Origin: an uncultured Bacteroidota bacterium
GTDB lineage: Bacteria; Bacteroidota; Bacteroidia; Bacteroidales; GWA2-32-17
DNA: 39,824 nt
Assembly (NCBI GenBank): GCA_903872185.1
Contig: CAIQJL010000363.1
Location: 1-39,824 of the forward strand
Direction: 5' to 3'
Part shown: in pieces, positions 6,168-13,080 of the stretch
Numbering within the stretch: position 1 is the stretch's first letter
Layout: the number at the start of each line of letters is the position of its first letter
The notes under the pieces: model-generated
What the model saw: the letters and a program-made list of their open reading frames with translations, nothing else
Databases searched by the model: none
Told to the model about the DNA's origin: nothing
Translations under genes and position numbers: made by a program

Positions 6168-6258
6168 AACACTATAAAATTAAAATTTTCAAATTCCAAT
6201 CAACAAATTCCAAAATCAAACACAATTCTCAAAATTGATACATTTTCAAATTATCAAA

Positions 6259-7179
6259 TTATTTATTAACCTGAAATGTTTTATCTCCAGACTTTAAATA
6301 TCCTACTATTTGTTTTGCAGCAGCTATACCAGCGTTAATATTAGCTTCTGAAGTTTCTGCACCTTGTTTTTTTGGTGTTGAATAATAGCGATGTTCAAAT
6401 GCTAACAAATCTGCATGACAAGCCGGAGCTATATCAGAAATATATTTAAAATCTTCGCGGGCAGCAAAAATACGTTTTAGTGAATCTTCGCAAACTACTT
6501 CTTTTCTTGCAGTGTCTACTAATGTTCCACCTTTTGGCATTTTGGATAACAAATCGAAATTTATTGAGTTTTTCGTTTTATCATTTGCCGGAATATGCAA
6601 TGAAATATAATGACAAGTTGAATAAAGCTCTTCAACAGAACCAACAACTTTTACTCCGTCTTTTTCAATTTGTTCTTTTGCTACAAAAGGATCAAAAGCA
6701 AAAACATTCATTCCAAAACCTTTTGCAATTGTTGCTACACCCTTGCCAACATAGCCATATGCATGAATTCCGATATTTTTACCTTTAAGCTCTGTACCAG
6801 AAATTCCCTTATAATTTCCACGAGCCATAAATACCATCATACCAATTGCCAATTCAGCAACTGCATTTGAATTTTGCCCGGGTGTATTCATAACAACTAC
6901 ACCTTTTGCAGTTGCAGCAGCTAAGTCAACGTTATCATATCCTGCACCGGCACGAACAACAATTTTCAAATTCTTTCCAGCTTCAATTACTTCTTTTGTT
7001 GCTTTATCGCTTCTAACAATTAAAGCATCAACATCTGCAACAGCTTTTAATAAATCGTTGTTATCGGTATATTTTTCGAGTAATACAAATTCAAATCCTG
7101 CATCTTCTATTACTTTTCTTATTGCATCAACTGCAGCTTTTGCAAATGGTTTTTCGGTAGCAACTAATATTTTTGACAT
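6259..7179 (-). CDS. serA: D-3-phosphoglycerate dehydrogenase, short ACT-less form
   Basis: NAD-dependent oxidation of 3-phosphoglycerate to 3-phosphohydroxypyruvate, the first step of serine synthesis. The 306-residue protein has only the substrate- and nucleotide-binding domains and no C-terminal regulatory ACT domain. Visible: RAGAGYDNVD near 76, the NAD-binding turn GIHAYGYVGKG near 137-147, catalytic Arg in DTARKE (Arg225), and DIAPA near 249. Where classical enzymes have the catalytic His in TPHIGA, this one reads TPKKQGAET, so a Lys (270 or 271) takes the place. That matches the lysine subgroup of short (type III) enzymes described for Entamoeba and relatives. It lies between serC and the DUF1015 gene. 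Confidence 0.93.
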   Translation of the reverse strand: MSKILVATEKPFAKAAVDAIRKVIEDAGFEFVLLEKYTDNNDLLKAVADVDALIVRSDKATKEVIEAGKNLKIVVRAGAGYDNVDLAAATAKGVVVMNTPGQNSNAVAELAIGMMVFMARGNYKGISGTELKGKNIGIHAYGYVGKGVATIAKGFGMNVFAFDPFVAKEQIEKDGVKVVGSVEELYSTCHYISLHIPANDKTKNSINFDLLSKMPKGGTLVDTARKEVVCEDSLKRIFAAREDFKYISDIAPACHADLLAFEHRYYSTPKKQGAETSEANINAGIAAAKQIVGYLKSGDKTFQVNK

Positions 7180-8509: not shown

Positions 8510-9226
8510 TTATGCCAGATAATCTGTAATAACCTCGTTTTTACATATTGGCAATACTTTTACAACATCTAGAGTATGGCAATACTCCACAATTTCGTCG
8601 CTTACAATTCCTCGTAAACGGTGACGATGTGCTGCTTTTTCGATATAAGTCATTACATCATTTTTGGCAACATTCCATAAATCTACTGAAGCATAAGTTG
8701 AATCACAAATAGTTGAAAATTTTCCTGACTCAATTAGTTTTGTAGCCATTGCGCCTGCACAAAGAGTATCTTCAATATTAAATTTCTTTTTCCAACCCGA
8801 ACATAAAATTACAACATCTGAATTATCAGAAATTAAAAACTTTACAACTTCTGCCAAATTTATAAAGGCTCCAATTATTACATGTTTTGCGTCTTTTGCC
8901 ATGTTTATTGCCTGAGTTCCATTGGTTGTGCTGTATGCAATTGTTTTTCCTTTTACTCTTTCTATAGTAAATAAGTTTGGTGAATTTCCAAAATCGGCAA
9001 AATCAAGTACAATTCCATCTCTTTCGGCAGCTAAAATAAAACCTGCATCTTTCATTTTTTTTGCATCTTCAACAGTACCAACAGGAATAATTTTATCGGC
9101 ACCTGCTGCAAAAGCAGCACAAATTGAAGTTGTTGCCCTCATTATATCAATAACAACAACATTTGCTTCGGTATTGTGGTATAAATTATATAAAGCCGGA
9201 GTAAAACAGATTTCTATCTTTTTCAT
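8510..9226 (-). CDS. comB: 2-phosphosulfolactate phosphatase family protein (ComB)
   Basis: Mg-dependent phosphatase family. ComB removes phosphate from 2-phosphosulfolactate in coenzyme M synthesis in methanogens; its substrate in Bacteroidota is uncertain. The 238-residue protein shows the family signatures VVVIDIMRATTS near 23-34, FGNSPN near 79, STTNGTQA near 98 and LCSGWKKK followed by EDTLCAGA near 140-160. It lies 150 nt upstream of serC on the same strand and has its own promoter-like box, so it may be the first gene of a comB-serC-serA block or a separate unit. Confidence 0.9.
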   Translation of the reverse strand: MKKIEICFTPALYNLYHNTEANVVVIDIMRATTSICAAFAAGADKIIPVGTVEDAKKMKDAGFILAAERDGIVLDFADFGNSPNLFTIERVKGKTIAYSTTNGTQAINMAKDAKHVIIGAFINLAEVVKFLISDNSDVVILCSGWKKKFNIEDTLCAGAMATKLIESGKFSTICDSTYASVDLWNVAKNDVMTYIEKAAHRHRLRGIVSDEIVEYCHTLDVVKVLPICKNEVITDYLA

Positions 9227-9255: not shown

Positions 9256-9439
9256 TAAAAACAAAAAAGAGTTAAGAACAAGAATAAATTTAATCCAAAA
9301 ATGATATTTACATTATTCTAATATTTGCATTTTGTTTAAATTACTATAATTTACCGAAAACTAATAATCACTTTTCATTTTGGATTAAAATTAAAAATAT
9401 TTAGCTTTAAAAATTATTATTAGGATATTAATAATTACT

Positions 9440-10564
9440 ATGAAACATTATTTAATAATATTTTTAGTTCTTTTCGGAATAACTTCGAATGTTAATTCAC
9501 AAGAAATAGTTTTTAAAAAAGATAGTGTAAATAATACACTAAGCTATAGTAAAAAACTTTTATCATCAAATCAAAATAAAGATTCAGTAATAGCTAATTG
9601 GTTAGTAAATGAATTTAGCATTCCATTAAATGCAATTAAATTTAAAAATAACTCTATTGTTTTTTCTAATAACACTCCTATTTACACAAAAAAAATTGGG
9701 CCTAAATTAAAAGATGGAGTATTTTATTATAAGATAACTATTTCATTTGATAGTTTACGATATAATTTTGACGCTTCTAACTTGATAATTGTAAACAAAA
9801 ATGATTCAACCACATTTGAAAAAATATCAACAACAACTGACAACACTAACACAATTAACACTAATTTAATTAGCTCACAGATAGTTGAAGAAATATCTTT
9901 ATTATCTAAATCTTTTGAAGAAAGTATTAATAAAGCCCAAATTAAAGATAAAAATATTGAAACTGGATTTATAAGATTCAGCATTACTTATAATTACAAT
10001 AGGCTTGTATCGCCATATGCAATGAATGAAAACACAGGTTTATCTAACTATATTAATGATTTAATGAATGGCTATGGATATTCAGCCAATATCATGTTTT
10101 TTAAACCTTCTAAATTAGGCTTTGGGGTTAATTTTATTCATTCATACTCCCATAATACCCAAAATTTTGTGCCTAATAATACCACTATGCCATCAGGTAA
10201 AATGGAAGATAAAATAACAACAAATATTATTGCAACATCTATTGGATATAGCGCTTTTAAAAAACAAAGTACCTTTAACTTAATTCCGTCAGCTTTTATT
10301 GGACTTTTGTTTTATCAAAATGATGGCTTCTTTCAACAGAAACTCTTAATTACTGGAAATACAGTAACAATTGGCACTTCAATCACAACTGATTTTAAAA
10401 TTAAAATAAATTCAAAAAAAGATATTGGCTTAAGCCTCACGGCATCATTTATCTACGCAACACTCAATAAAATAAGAGTAAATGGCGCAATTGACAATAA
10501 TTTATCTAATCTAAAATCTGATTTAAGTAGAGTAGAATTAAGTTTGGGAATTTGCCTTTATTAA
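9440..10564 (+). CDS. secreted, probable outer-membrane beta-barrel protein, unknown function
   Basis: A 374-residue protein with a signal peptide (MKHYLIIFLVLFGITS, cleavage near NSQ at about 20). The N-terminal half (about 25-115) contains one small alpha/beta-looking region whose layout recalls the DUF4468 type of Bacteroidota domain; this is a weak resemblance. A Thr/Asn/Ser-rich linker follows (about 120-140). Residues from about 170 to the end are alternating short beta strands rich in Phe, Tyr and Gly, ending in SLGICLY, as expected for a barrel in the outer membrane. The gene stands alone, divergent from comB, with a hairpin terminator directly after its stop. Confidence 0.7.
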   Translation: MKHYLIIFLVLFGITSNVNSQEIVFKKDSVNNTLSYSKKLLSSNQNKDSVIANWLVNEFSIPLNAIKFKNNSIVFSNNTPIYTKKIGPKLKDGVFYYKITISFDSLRYNFDASNLIIVNKNDSTTFEKISTTTDNTNTINTNLISSQIVEEISLLSKSFEESINKAQIKDKNIETGFIRFSITYNYNRLVSPYAMNENTGLSNYINDLMNGYGYSANIMFFKPSKLGFGVNFIHSYSHNTQNFVPNNTTMPSGKMEDKITTNIIATSIGYSAFKKQSTFNLIPSAFIGLLFYQNDGFFQQKLLITGNTVTIGTSITTDFKIKINSKKDIGLSLTASFIYATLNKIRVNGAIDNNLSNLKSDLSRVELSLGICLY

Positions 10565-10571
10565 AAACAAA

Positions 10572-10591
10572 AAAGAGGCTTACGCCTCTTT
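10572..10591. terminator. intrinsic terminator, copy A of a three-copy family
   Basis: AAAGAGGC TTAC GCCTCTTT is a perfect 8-bp stem with a T-rich tail, eight nt after the preceding plus-strand stop. Near-identical hairpins recur at 10787-10806 and 11970-11989. This copy is followed by the displaced gcvT 3' fragment in the same order as at the gcvT locus itself. Confidence 0.85.
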
Positions 10592-10601
10592 CCTTAATTT
10601 T

Positions 10602-10652
10602 TATAAATTGGTAATTTAACCACTTTTGCTTTAAGTAGCTTATCGCGTACTT
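10602..10652 (-). pseudogene. displaced 3'-terminal fragment of gcvT
   Basis: This 51-bp stretch matches 12000-12050, the end of the intact gcvT gene, at 47 of 51 positions. On the minus strand it still encodes [17 protein letters not shown]. All four differences (10614, 10636, 10645, 10648) fall in third or silent codon positions: TTA/CTA, CTA/CTG, GTA/GTG and CGC/CGT. The similarity continues into the adjoining terminator and stops where a REP-like repeat begins. It has no start and is not a working gene. The silent-only pattern suggests the piece came from a once-functional, diverged gcvT copy. Confidence 0.85.
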
Positions 10653-10656
10653 CCAA

Positions 10657-10727
10657 CCAAGGTCTGTGGCTCACATACATCTTATTGCAATTTTGTTTTT
10701 TTTTGTGGTCTTTGTGTCACAGACTAC
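10657..10727. repeat. REP-like hairpin pair, copy 1
   Basis: A degenerate unit CCAAGGTCTGTGGCTCACA, a spacer containing TTATTGCAATTTTG, and a second unit GTGGTCTTTGTGTCACAGAC. The whole composite, spacer included, aligns with the cleaner pair at 11880-11952. The hairpin symmetry here is decayed at several positions. Confidence 0.75.
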
Positions 10728-10746
10728 AAGGAGTAAATCAAAAAAA

Positions 10747-10769
10747 GGCCTGTGAGCCACAGACCATGG
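10747..10769. repeat. REP-like unit, inverted relative to the one at 10657
   Basis: TGTGAGCCACAGACCATGG is the reverse complement, with one change, of the first unit at 10657-10675, so the two form a wide inverted repeat enclosing about 75 bp. The unit also folds on itself (GGCCTGTG / CACAGACC). It is followed by a terminator exactly as the unit at 11928-11952 is. Confidence 0.75.
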
Positions 10770-10786
10770 ATTAGTGATAAAACAAA

Positions 10787-10806
10787 AAAGAGACTTACGC
10801 CTCTTT
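10787..10806 (-). terminator. intrinsic terminator, copy C
   Basis: AAAGAG and CTCTTT arms with one A/C mismatch relative to its two sister copies. Read on the minus strand, it lies about 50 nt after the stop of the small T9SS protein gene and ends in T-runs, so it probably terminates that gene. Confidence 0.7.
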
Positions 10807-10853
10807 TCTTAATTTTTAGCCTTTTTTGGAGTTATTCTCCAACAAAGATTTAT

Positions 10854-11609
10854 TTACATAACAATTTGCTTAGTATAAATACTTAAATCGGTAAATTGCA
10901 CCTGTACAATATAAGTACCATGTACAATACCTGCTGTACTTATGTTTGCTGAATAAGAATTTATATTGTTTTGCGATGCAACAACAACACCTGTTGTGCT
11001 TGTTAACGTTAAGCTCTTTATCAGCTTACCTGATTCAACAATAACATTACCCGAATTTCCTAAATAAACATTTGTACTATCAGTTATGTTTATGTTTGGC
11101 ATATTAGTACTAATTGTTGTTTGCCCATACAAAAATGGATAATTGGCAATTTTACAAAAAGCATATTTATCAATAGTCATTGTATTGGGGTTAATGGTTT
11201 TTAATATGTGAATCCATCCATAATAATTATTTGTTCCATCTAAAATCTTAATTCCTAAACGATAATCACCAGGAGAAACTGTCCACTCATCATCTCCAGA
11301 CCACCAGTATAGTGTACTGCTTGTTAAGGAATCATCATGAGTTGGTGGAAAACTTGCATACTTACAATTACTATTTAAAGTCTTAAAATATGGTGATGTA
11401 AATGGATAATAATGAAAATAAAATTGAATATCAAGTAATCCATCCTGATTTATATCAATCTTTAGAGTATCTGAAGGAGTTGATAACACAACATCTGGTA
11501 CATAATCATGAAAAATTACATTTGTGTCATTTAATGTTTGTAATGTTTGGGCTTTTAACGATAAGGACATTATTGTAATTATCGTTATTATTAAAAATTT
11601 TAGTTTCAT
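10854..11609 (-). CDS. small secreted protein with T9SS C-terminal sorting domain
   Basis: A 251-residue protein with a signal peptide (cut near AQTLQ, residue 21) and a C-terminal region from about 175 that has the form of a type A T9SS sorting domain: a short beta sandwich, then GTYIVQVQFTD and the basic end IYTKQIVM. It should cross the outer membrane through T9SS and be attached to, or released from, the surface. A calcium-loop-like DINQDGLLD sits at 52-60. The central Trp/Tyr-rich region (YWWSGDDEW, YYGWIHI) recalls small beta-sandwich domains, but I cannot name it. It is a single gene flanked on both sides by REP-like repeats and related terminators. Confidence 0.82.
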   Translation of the reverse strand: MKLKFLIITIITIMSLSLKAQTLQTLNDTNVIFHDYVPDVVLSTPSDTLKIDINQDGLLDIQFYFHYYPFTSPYFKTLNSNCKYASFPPTHDDSLTSSTLYWWSGDDEWTVSPGDYRLGIKILDGTNNYYGWIHILKTINPNTMTIDKYAFCKIANYPFLYGQTTISTNMPNINITDSTNVYLGNSGNVIVESGKLIKSLTLTSTTGVVVASQNNINSYSANISTAGIVHGTYIVQVQFTDLSIYTKQIVM

Positions 11610-11679
11610 ATTTTTATTTTTTAAATTTATTAATATTTTACTGAGGACAAGGGTGTGTAATTAAATCCAACTCGCTACA

Positions 11680-11687
11680 CAAAGGTA
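11680..11687 (-). promoter_or_regulatory. candidate -7 promoter box (TACCTTTG)
   Basis: TAnnTTTG match on the minus strand, about 70 nt before the ATG of the small T9SS protein. It would leave a long leader. No clean TTTG stands at -33. Confidence 0.45.
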
Positions 11688-11879
11688 CATCAAAATCGCC
11701 ATTTAACTAATTTTTAACAAATAAAATTAAGTTATTACAAAATTATAATGCAATTTTAGTAAGTGTTTGTAAACTACAACTGAATATAGTTTATTACAAG
11801 TATTTGTGTTTAATAACTAATAAGTTAGTTATTGTAATACGTTATTATAACAATTTAATTAATGAGATTATACACACAA

Positions 11880-11952
11880 CCAAGGTCTGTGTGTCACAGA
11901 CCTGTTATTGCAACTTTGTTTTTATTTGTGGTCTGTGTGTCACAGACCATGG
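11880..11952. repeat. REP-like hairpin pair, copy 2
   Basis: Two perfect hairpins, GGTCTGTG TGT CACAGACC at 11884-11902 and again at 11930-11948, framed by CCAA on the left and ATGG on the right and separated by a 27-nt T-rich spacer. The composite aligns with 10657-10727. Perfect arms suggest this copy is younger or under selection. Confidence 0.82.
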
Positions 11953-11969
11953 AGTAGAATATAAACAAA

Positions 11970-11989
11970 AAAGAGGCTTTCGCCTCTTT
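11970..11989 (-). terminator. gcvT intrinsic terminator, copy B
   Basis: AAAGAGGC TTTC GCCTCTTT begins 2 nt after the gcvT stop and on the minus strand is followed by a T-run. It is one of three related hairpins in this 1.4-kb stretch. Confidence 0.88.
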
Positions 11990-11991
11990 TC

Positions 11992-13080
11992 TTATTTTTT
12001 ATAAATTGGTAGTTTAACCACTTTTGCTTTAAGCAGCTTATCACGCACTTTAACATAGATTTCTGAATCAACTTTTGAGAATTCAGTTTTTACATAACCC
12101 ATACCAATTCCAATTTTCATCATTGGCGATTGTGTGCCAGATGTTACATGTCCGATTTTATTTCCTGCATCATCACAAATTTCATATTCGTGACGAGGAA
12201 TACCACGGTCAATCATTTCAAAACCTACTAATTTTGTATGTGTACCATTTTTCTTATGTTCTAAGAAAATATCTTTATTAATAAAATTCTTAGCATCGGT
12301 GAACTTTGTTATCCAGCCTAATCCAGCCTGAATTGGTGAAGTTGTATCATCGATATCATTGCCATATAAACAGAAACCCATTTCTAAACGTAAGGTATCG
12401 CGTGCTGCTAAACCAATAGGTTTAATTCCAAATTCTTTTCCTGCTTCAAAAACAGCATCCCAAACTTTTTCAGCATCGGCATTTGCAAAATAAATTTCGC
12501 AACCACCTGCACCGGTATAACCTGTTGTTGAGAAAATAACATCTTTAACACCTGCAAAATCTAACTTTTTAAAAGTATAATACTCCATATCTGTAACGGT
12601 AGTATTTGTTAACTTTTGCATAGCTTTTAATGCAAGCGGTCCCTGAACCGCAAGTTGTGAAACCTCATCAGAAGCATTATATAACACAGCGCCCATATCA
12701 TTCTGAGAATTTATCCAATTCCAGTCCTTTTCAATATTTGATGCATTAACAACTAGCAAATAAGTTTCTGAATTAACACGGTATACTAAAAGATCATCAA
12801 CTATTCCACCTTTTCCGTTAGGAAAACAGGAATACTGAACTTTACCATCAACCAAGACTGATGCATCATTTGATGTAACTTTTTGAATTAAATCTAAAGC
12901 TTTTGGACCTTTAACCCAAAATTCGCCCATATGCGAAACATCAAAAACACCAATACTTGTTCTAACTGCAACATGTTCTTCTATATCACCCGTATATTTT
13001 AAAGGCATATAAAAACCAACAAAAGGAACCATTTTAGCTCCTAATTTTTCATGAATGTGTGAAAAAGCTGTACGTTTCAT
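11992..13080 (-). CDS. gcvT: glycine cleavage system T protein (aminomethyltransferase)
   Basis: Transfers the methylene group from the aminomethyl-lipoyl H protein to tetrahydrofolate, releasing ammonia: the middle step of glycine breakdown into one-carbon units. The 362-residue length is standard. Seen: the N-terminal [24 protein letters not shown] near 44-54, the folate/catalytic Asp region [11 protein letters not shown] near 91-101, [16 protein letters not shown] near 190 and the C-terminal [21 protein letters not shown]. No gcvH or gcvP is in the window. A 51-bp copy of its 3' end lies 1.4 kb away at 10602-10652. Confidence 0.97.

Follow-up and report, generated by a model that had tools for sequence, protein, structure and literature searches.

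The window analysed here is the whole of contig C363 (39,824 nucleotides) from the draft genome of an uncultured Bacteroidota bacterium of the GTDB lineage GWA2-32-17 (genome G000; 407 contigs, 4.3 Mb). Between gcvT, which encodes an aminomethyltransferase, and a comB-like gene it holds a composite block of 2.7 kb, in which a second copy of the gcvT 3' end lies downstream of a gene for a secreted protein (geneB). We argue that this fragment probably stems from a gcvT allele whose 3' end was stranded by an insertion that restored the intact gene. Comparisons are made with the nine other genomes of the family (G001-G009; family n = 10) and, at genus level, in a set of five genomes including G000, all of them draft assemblies. 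The sense of gcvT at the locus is the minus strand, and in this sense the features follow each other as listed below (T9SS, type IX secretion system; REP, repetitive extragenic palindrome; T1 to T3, copies of the gcvT terminator).

11992..13080, minus strand: gcvT, intact aminomethyltransferase gene, read from 13080 to 11992 (NF001567, 445.6 bits)
11962..11989, minus strand: T1, terminator of the intact gcvT
11877..11948, no strand: REP1 block, two palindromes
11708..11876, minus strand: spacer of about 170 bases, probable promoter region, common to G004, in which an S74-domain T9SS gene follows it
11638..11706, minus strand: 3'-end stub of a GH16-like gene, 22 codons, LNGDFDVPLCSELDLITHPCPQ and stop, matching the C-termini of the genes that precede the geneB homologues in G002 and G003
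10854..11609, minus strand: geneB, 251-amino-acid secreted protein whose T9SS type A sorting domain scores weakly (16.4 bits against a cut-off of 23; no Pfam match)
10813-10848: geneB's own terminator (GGAGTTATTCTCC hairpin)
10808..10818, minus strand: gcvT'', stop and last bases of gcvT (at most 11 bases), fused to the geneB terminator via six shared bases, TTTTTA, at 10813-10818
10779..10806, minus strand: T2, second terminator copy
10654..10769, no strand: REP2 block, three palindromes, its joint to gcvT' having a possible AAGTA microhomology
10594..10650, minus strand: gcvT', the putative stranded gcvT end, last 18 codons and stop, with four silent and one non-silent codon differences from the intact gene
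10564..10591, minus strand: T3, terminator copy 3' of the gcvT tail
9440..10564, plus strand: geneA, 374 amino acids, convergent with gcvT and without Pfam match, exported-looking (signal peptide judged by eye)
9256..9271, minus strand: copy, 16 bases long, of the gcvT terminator's 3' arm and tail (CTCTTTTTTGTTTTTA on the minus strand), comB-side edge of the block
8510..9226, minus strand: comB-like gene of the 2-phosphosulfolactate phosphatase family (Pfam PF04029, E 2.4e-66), ancestral neighbour of gcvT

Palindromes like GGTCTGTGTGTCACAGACC (10661-10765 and 11884-11948 in the window) occur at 24 places in the genome when up to three mismatches are allowed, several of them close 3' of gene ends. 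The terminator of geneB recurs at several places in G000 and G004; in G004 a terminator of this type also lies 3' of the gene adjoining comB.

The tail and the end of the intact gene belong to one direct repeat of 91 bp at 91% identity (10562-10652 against 11960-12050). In the alignment 83 of 92 bases are alike and 9 differ, and self-BLAST recovers the repeat at E <= 1e-6; the duplicate announced by the original prediction (10602-10652 against 12000-12050) is thus real. The shared adjoining terminator is borne out as well: its 28-mer, at up to three mismatches, is present three times in the 4.3-Mb genome, each time within the locus (T1, T2 and T3), which rules out that it is a common genomic repeat. 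The description of the intervening 1.4 kb as one T9SS gene plus REP elements proved incomplete, since T2, the gcvT stop and the GH16-like stub also lie there and the sorting domain of geneB is below the curated cut-off (its G003 homologue is above, at 25.6 bits). Moreover, because gcvT and comB adjoin in relatives, the inserted block extends to about position 9272. The 16 bases at this edge are found again at 10562-10577, and in G003 the edge runs on into comB. It is identical in G000 and G004; the likeness of the flanks beyond it is reached by 1 of 5000 shuffles, and the score of the comB-side flank in the same comparison by 1 of 11,362 stretches of the window.

The tail comprises 57 coding bases (10594-10650) and reaches to the stop codon. 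It had been claimed that the fragment differs from gcvT by silent changes only. This holds for 10602-10652, where all four differences from the intact gene are silent, and fails for the whole tail: a fifth difference, AAT against AAA in codon 362, is non-silent (K362N); the working gcvT of G003 also has AAT. With four silent and one non-silent differences across 19 codons, the chance of at least four of five being silent under random change is P 0.015-0.046, the range being set by transition bias. When the differences are polarised with G003 and G004 (the G007 row left out), CGT is a change in the intact copy and AAT is common to the tail and G003, which leaves CTA, TTA and, less surely, GTA as changes made in the tail. 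The GTA/GTG difference may be junction sequence, because it falls right on the boundary of the repeat, a place at which G004 has AAGTA in its REP flank. Given this position, and given how few changes are the tail's own, the silent bias at the gcvT locus is suggestive and not strong by itself.

An empty site with one gcvT end is present in the congener G003, where gcvT, a single terminator and comB abut. Overall, comB lies directly 3' of gcvT in four of the nine other family genomes (G002, G003, G006 and G008). In G004 the contigs of gcvT and comB both break off in the interval separating the genes, and those of G007 run out within about 230 bases; the gcvT contig of G001 stops 292 bases past gcvT, its comB contig continuing for about 25 kb on that side, and in G005 and G009 the two genes are on separate contigs. 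At loci from other families (L010-L013 and L015-L030, several of them short) comB accompanies gcvT in 9 of 20. The arrangement of the window is found in none of the four congeners, as far as their contigs reach. Together, the empty site of G003 and the composite block of the window support the claim of a recombination scar.

The interval between gcvT and comB appears to have been rebuilt several times, because the insert of G004 differs, the geneB cluster is whole elsewhere and that of the window is trimmed. After gcvT, G004 has a terminator, three REP palindromes, the same spacer, an S74-domain T9SS gene and the start of another gene; from the gcvT stop to the spacer, 275 of the 293 bases aligned with the window are alike (gaps left out). 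A separate contig of G004 carries a GH16-like C-terminus (judged by eye), another secreted-looking gene and comB, the first two being outside the Pfam scan. The homologues of geneB in G002 (63%) and G003 (59%) are third in a cluster of S74, GH16-like and geneB genes at another place, where the gene preceding geneB is Glyco_hydro_16 in G003 (E 2e-14) and its G002 counterpart is outside the Pfam scan. The window is without the S74 gene, and its GH16-like gene is reduced to the last 22 codons. For geneA no match is seen in the nine other family genomes; being absent from G003 too, it must be a further insertion. Within the order, 13 of the 294 other genomes contain weak matches to geneA (identity 21-30%, with at most six candidates scored per genome), which are not informative.

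Further stranded gene ends were sought in 231 sequences (3,421,558 bases) as direct repeats 45-600 bp long and separated by no more than 15 kb (for part of the scan, 45-400 bp and 6 kb) that contain the stop codon of an open reading frame (ORF) of at least 100 amino acids. Repeats were accepted at an identity of at least 80% with the second copy outside any ORF. This limit was chosen post hoc, with the hits already known, and the sample is non-random, because several stretches had been picked for REP, terminator or Y1 matches. Four cases were kept, with the stub downstream in all of them: the window and the three loci below, one of which is from another Bacteroidetes metagenome-assembled genome (MAG). 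Their stubs hold 192, 84 and 111 coding bases, respectively, next to the 57 of gcvT'.

L218 (G003, contig C105, at about 108.8-112.2 kb, inside a 260-kb contig), repeat 8801-8997 and 11993-12190: a 243-amino-acid gene (no Pfam match), a PKD-domain T9SS protein, a gene on the other strand, the stub
L266 (G004, contig C101), repeat 6200-6346 and 8691-8837: a 279-amino-acid epimerase-like gene (named from sequence; no Pfam match), a T9SS YCF48-repeat protein, the stub with 63 bases beyond its coding part
L146 (another Bacteroidetes MAG), repeat 393-505 and 1295-1407: a menaquinone-biosynthesis gene, a carbonic anhydrase gene, the stub

Candidates below 80% with the second copy outside an ORF were dropped (L200, 69%; L259, 66%; L290, 73%; L299, 76% and 78%), as were those with both copies inside ORFs (L031, L232, L270 and L283). 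The stretches of G000, G003 and G004 also contain many more direct repeats of at least 80% that lack an ORF's stop codon by the criterion used here.

At L218 the two copies differ by 25 silent and 3 non-silent (conservative) changes and by one 1-base gap in the stub, with P 1e-12 under random change; the silent/non-silent P values of the stub loci are approximate, codon differences being taken as independent and per-base rates being used. The stub is 12.6% distant from G000 and 15.1% from G004, against 17.4% from its own full copy, and in a small tree the stub, G000 and G004 are separate from the full copy (support 0.86-0.90). Along the full gene, five 90-column windows precede column 450; G000 is clearly nearer than G004 in three of them, level in one and farther in one; past column 450 the two are about level with respect to the full copy, and stub, G000 and G004 are alike. 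This pattern is partly consistent with a replaced 3' end. For L266 an empty site is seen in G003, which matches at 81% over 733 bp through the stub and its flank. At L146 there are six silent and two non-silent differences, one of the latter being a stop near the edge. All three genus cases enclose a gene whose secreted product has a T9SS sorting domain (under the cut-off for geneB, just over it for L266), though this may not be special, because such genes are common in the scanned stretches.

As to the source of the gcvT tail, over about 90 bases it matches the local gcvT at 83/92, that of G003 at 82/91 and that of G004 at 81/89, the ends of the local and the G004 gene matching each other at 83/89. 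In whole codons it differs at 5 of 19 from the local gene, 5 of 19 from G004 and 6 of 19 from G003. Given these near-equal distances, the tail is about as distinct as another species' gcvT, and the check whether it is nearer to such a gene than to its own ends about equal, neither being closer. The nearest gcvT relatives among named records are Bacteroidia and Bacteroidales MAGs; a scan of this named collection gave at best 81% protein identity and none as near as the congeners (very near records were possibly excluded), so that no donor is identified. Import from a related genome, as the original prediction had it, is partly upheld. At gcvT it is likely but unproven: the empty site and L218 speak for it, while the comparison of the tail with its own gcvT is equivocal and two sites link it to the local copy. 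Import is better supported for L218 in G003 than for the gcvT case, and it is because of this sister case that we favour it over an old local duplication at gcvT.

The locus would then carry an insertion scar of a known kind, made by homologous exchange in a shared gene together with illegitimate joining. The ancestral order would have been gcvT, terminator, comB, and the incoming stretch would have consisted of a gcvT end with terminator, REPs and secreted-protein genes. One side may have joined by homologous exchange within gcvT and the other by illegitimate (microhomology) joining, giving an intact gcvT followed by the incoming genes and stranding the recipient's last 57 coding bases and terminator. 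T2 and its gcvT stop would be a second leftover, from more than one round, and S74, together with most of the GH16-like gene, would later have disappeared from the S74-GH16-geneB cluster. Shared bases are seen at two joints, six of them in TTTTTA (10813-10818) and about five in AAGTA (gcvT'/REP2, read against G004), both AT-rich so that chance matches are possible; the REP2/gcvT' joint is present in one assembly. The order of events, the other-lineage source of the incoming DNA and the joining mechanism are what we infer from sequence comparison.

Two processes known from other bacteria resemble this scheme. Insertion with long target duplication was described in Helicobacter (Nobusato et al. 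2000, Gene 259:99-108) and, according to PMC1643837, PMC3031569 and PMC4978471, is frequently linked to restriction-modification genes. As in that process, long direct target repeats (here 91 bp, 91%) flank the insert, and a related genome (here G003) is single-copy without insert. The locus departs from that process in its cargo of secreted-protein genes, in the 9% divergence of its repeats and in having two nested leftovers; a restriction-modification link is not seen, geneA and geneB having no Pfam match and geneB a weak T9SS domain. Homology-facilitated illegitimate recombination, as described in PMC3240628, combines one-sided homology with mostly 3-10 bp of microhomology at the other joint; a single crossover leaves a portion of the target gene in duplicate, and the products generally have a deletion sized like the insertion. 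Here gcvT would be the shared sequence on one side, though the local gene is not visibly mosaic, and the 5-6 shared bases at two joints are within the 3-10 bp range but may be chance matches; the recipient sequence is retained as a stub.

Several observations weigh against a stranded allele. At CCA and at the G that follows the stop the tail goes with the local gcvT, at AAT with G003; given the two sites shared with the local copy, a local origin of the tail is possible. The local gcvT has no clear mosaic structure with respect to G003 and G004, the sliding comparison being flat and without a breakpoint, and among the 10 genomes of the family no donor with an exactly matching gcvT end was found. 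At L218 the full gene fits a replaced 3' end only in part, and no empty site was found, the DNA after the stub being unmatched 3' of the orthologue in G000, G004 and G001. At L266 the differences, three silent and three non-silent, crowd at the stub edge, and the distance of the stub from G003 (13.6%) exceeds that from its own full copy (9.5%). Finally, stubs are not clearly more frequent in the genus, with two besides the window in 2,031,719 bases of G000, G003 and G004 (L193-L232 and L243-L322), than outside it, with one in 80 named loci (1,122,562 bases); the remaining 30 sequences gave none besides the window.

Part of this evidence would fit a local tandem duplication, in which slippage or template switching in the same lineage produced further copies of the gcvT end with terminator and REPs, deletions trimmed the copies and the tail drifted as dead sequence. 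Three terminator copies and two REP blocks resemble repeated local copying, and at CCA and TAAG the tail agrees with the local gcvT. Relaxed constraint would account for K362N and for the additional changes on the branch leading to the tail, and the L266 stub is nearest to its own full copy. We nonetheless consider such a duplication unlikely, if far from negligible: the tail is equally far from the local and from other species' gcvT, and neither the arrival of geneB and geneA nor the L218 stub, which is nearer to other species, is explained. An assembly chimera in this MAG might be suspected from the REP2/gcvT' junction, which is seen in this assembly only, yet the other joints (T1-REP1-spacer and the comB side) have support from G004 and a similar scar lies deep in the 260-kb contig of another assembly (L218), so that we regard a chimera as most improbable.

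In integration islands of the att type the 3' end of a gene is directly repeated: one side has the restored end, the other the leftover. The block, flanked by direct repeats of gene 3' end and terminator and with the gene end restored, has this general form and could be a decayed element that used the gcvT end as its attachment site. Its ORFs of at least 80 amino acids are, however, geneA, geneB and an 85-amino-acid antisense frame, with no integrase found among them (Pfam was run on geneA and geneB); the repeats are 91% alike without an identical core (9 of 92 bases differ), and in the other cases other genes are the target, with tails of other lengths. The gene-end integration offered by the original prediction is accordingly not supported, and we give it very little credence. 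REP palindromes occur in closely spaced groups behind genes (bacterial interspersed mosaic elements, BIMEs) and are associated with tyrosine transposases (RAYTs). Recombination between REP copies, or mobilisation by a RAYT, might have moved the gcvT end: REP blocks adjoin the tail and two terminator copies, the palindromes are in close groups 3' of genes as in BIMEs, and the genome carries Y1-type transposases. Unlike RAYT-mobilised REPs, those found here are of low copy (24 places), and none is seen around the Y1 transposases inspected (12 loci of 2.0-3.4 kb, drawn from 33 genus matches and including two of G000's five); moreover, by the stop-codon criterion, no duplicated gene end is seen in the 15 other REP stretches of G000. 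REPs are not shown to be the cause of the duplicated gcvT end, and we hold this origin to be very improbable.

The window thus presents secreted-protein genes inserted directly 3' of a housekeeping gene, with similar scars behind other genes in two sister species (G003 and G004). Among the matches listed from the open-licence literature no title concerns T9SS cargo with stranded gene ends, though absence from print is not claimed. It might tentatively be argued, as an idea that we rate at somewhat less than even, that T9SS cargo passes between species of the genus as a housekeeping-gene end with the cargo behind it, each arrival stranding the previous end downstream. If so, the shared gene end would serve as landing homology, with the gene restored every time, and the stubs would record, in countable form, the arrival of genes and the identity of their donors. 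Stranded ends may show the entry of secreted-protein genes without a mobile element and, where the stub is unlike the intact gene, the lineage of the source. Should the pattern hold genome-wide, it would provide a simple marker of gene import by ordinary recombination in uncultured Bacteroidales.

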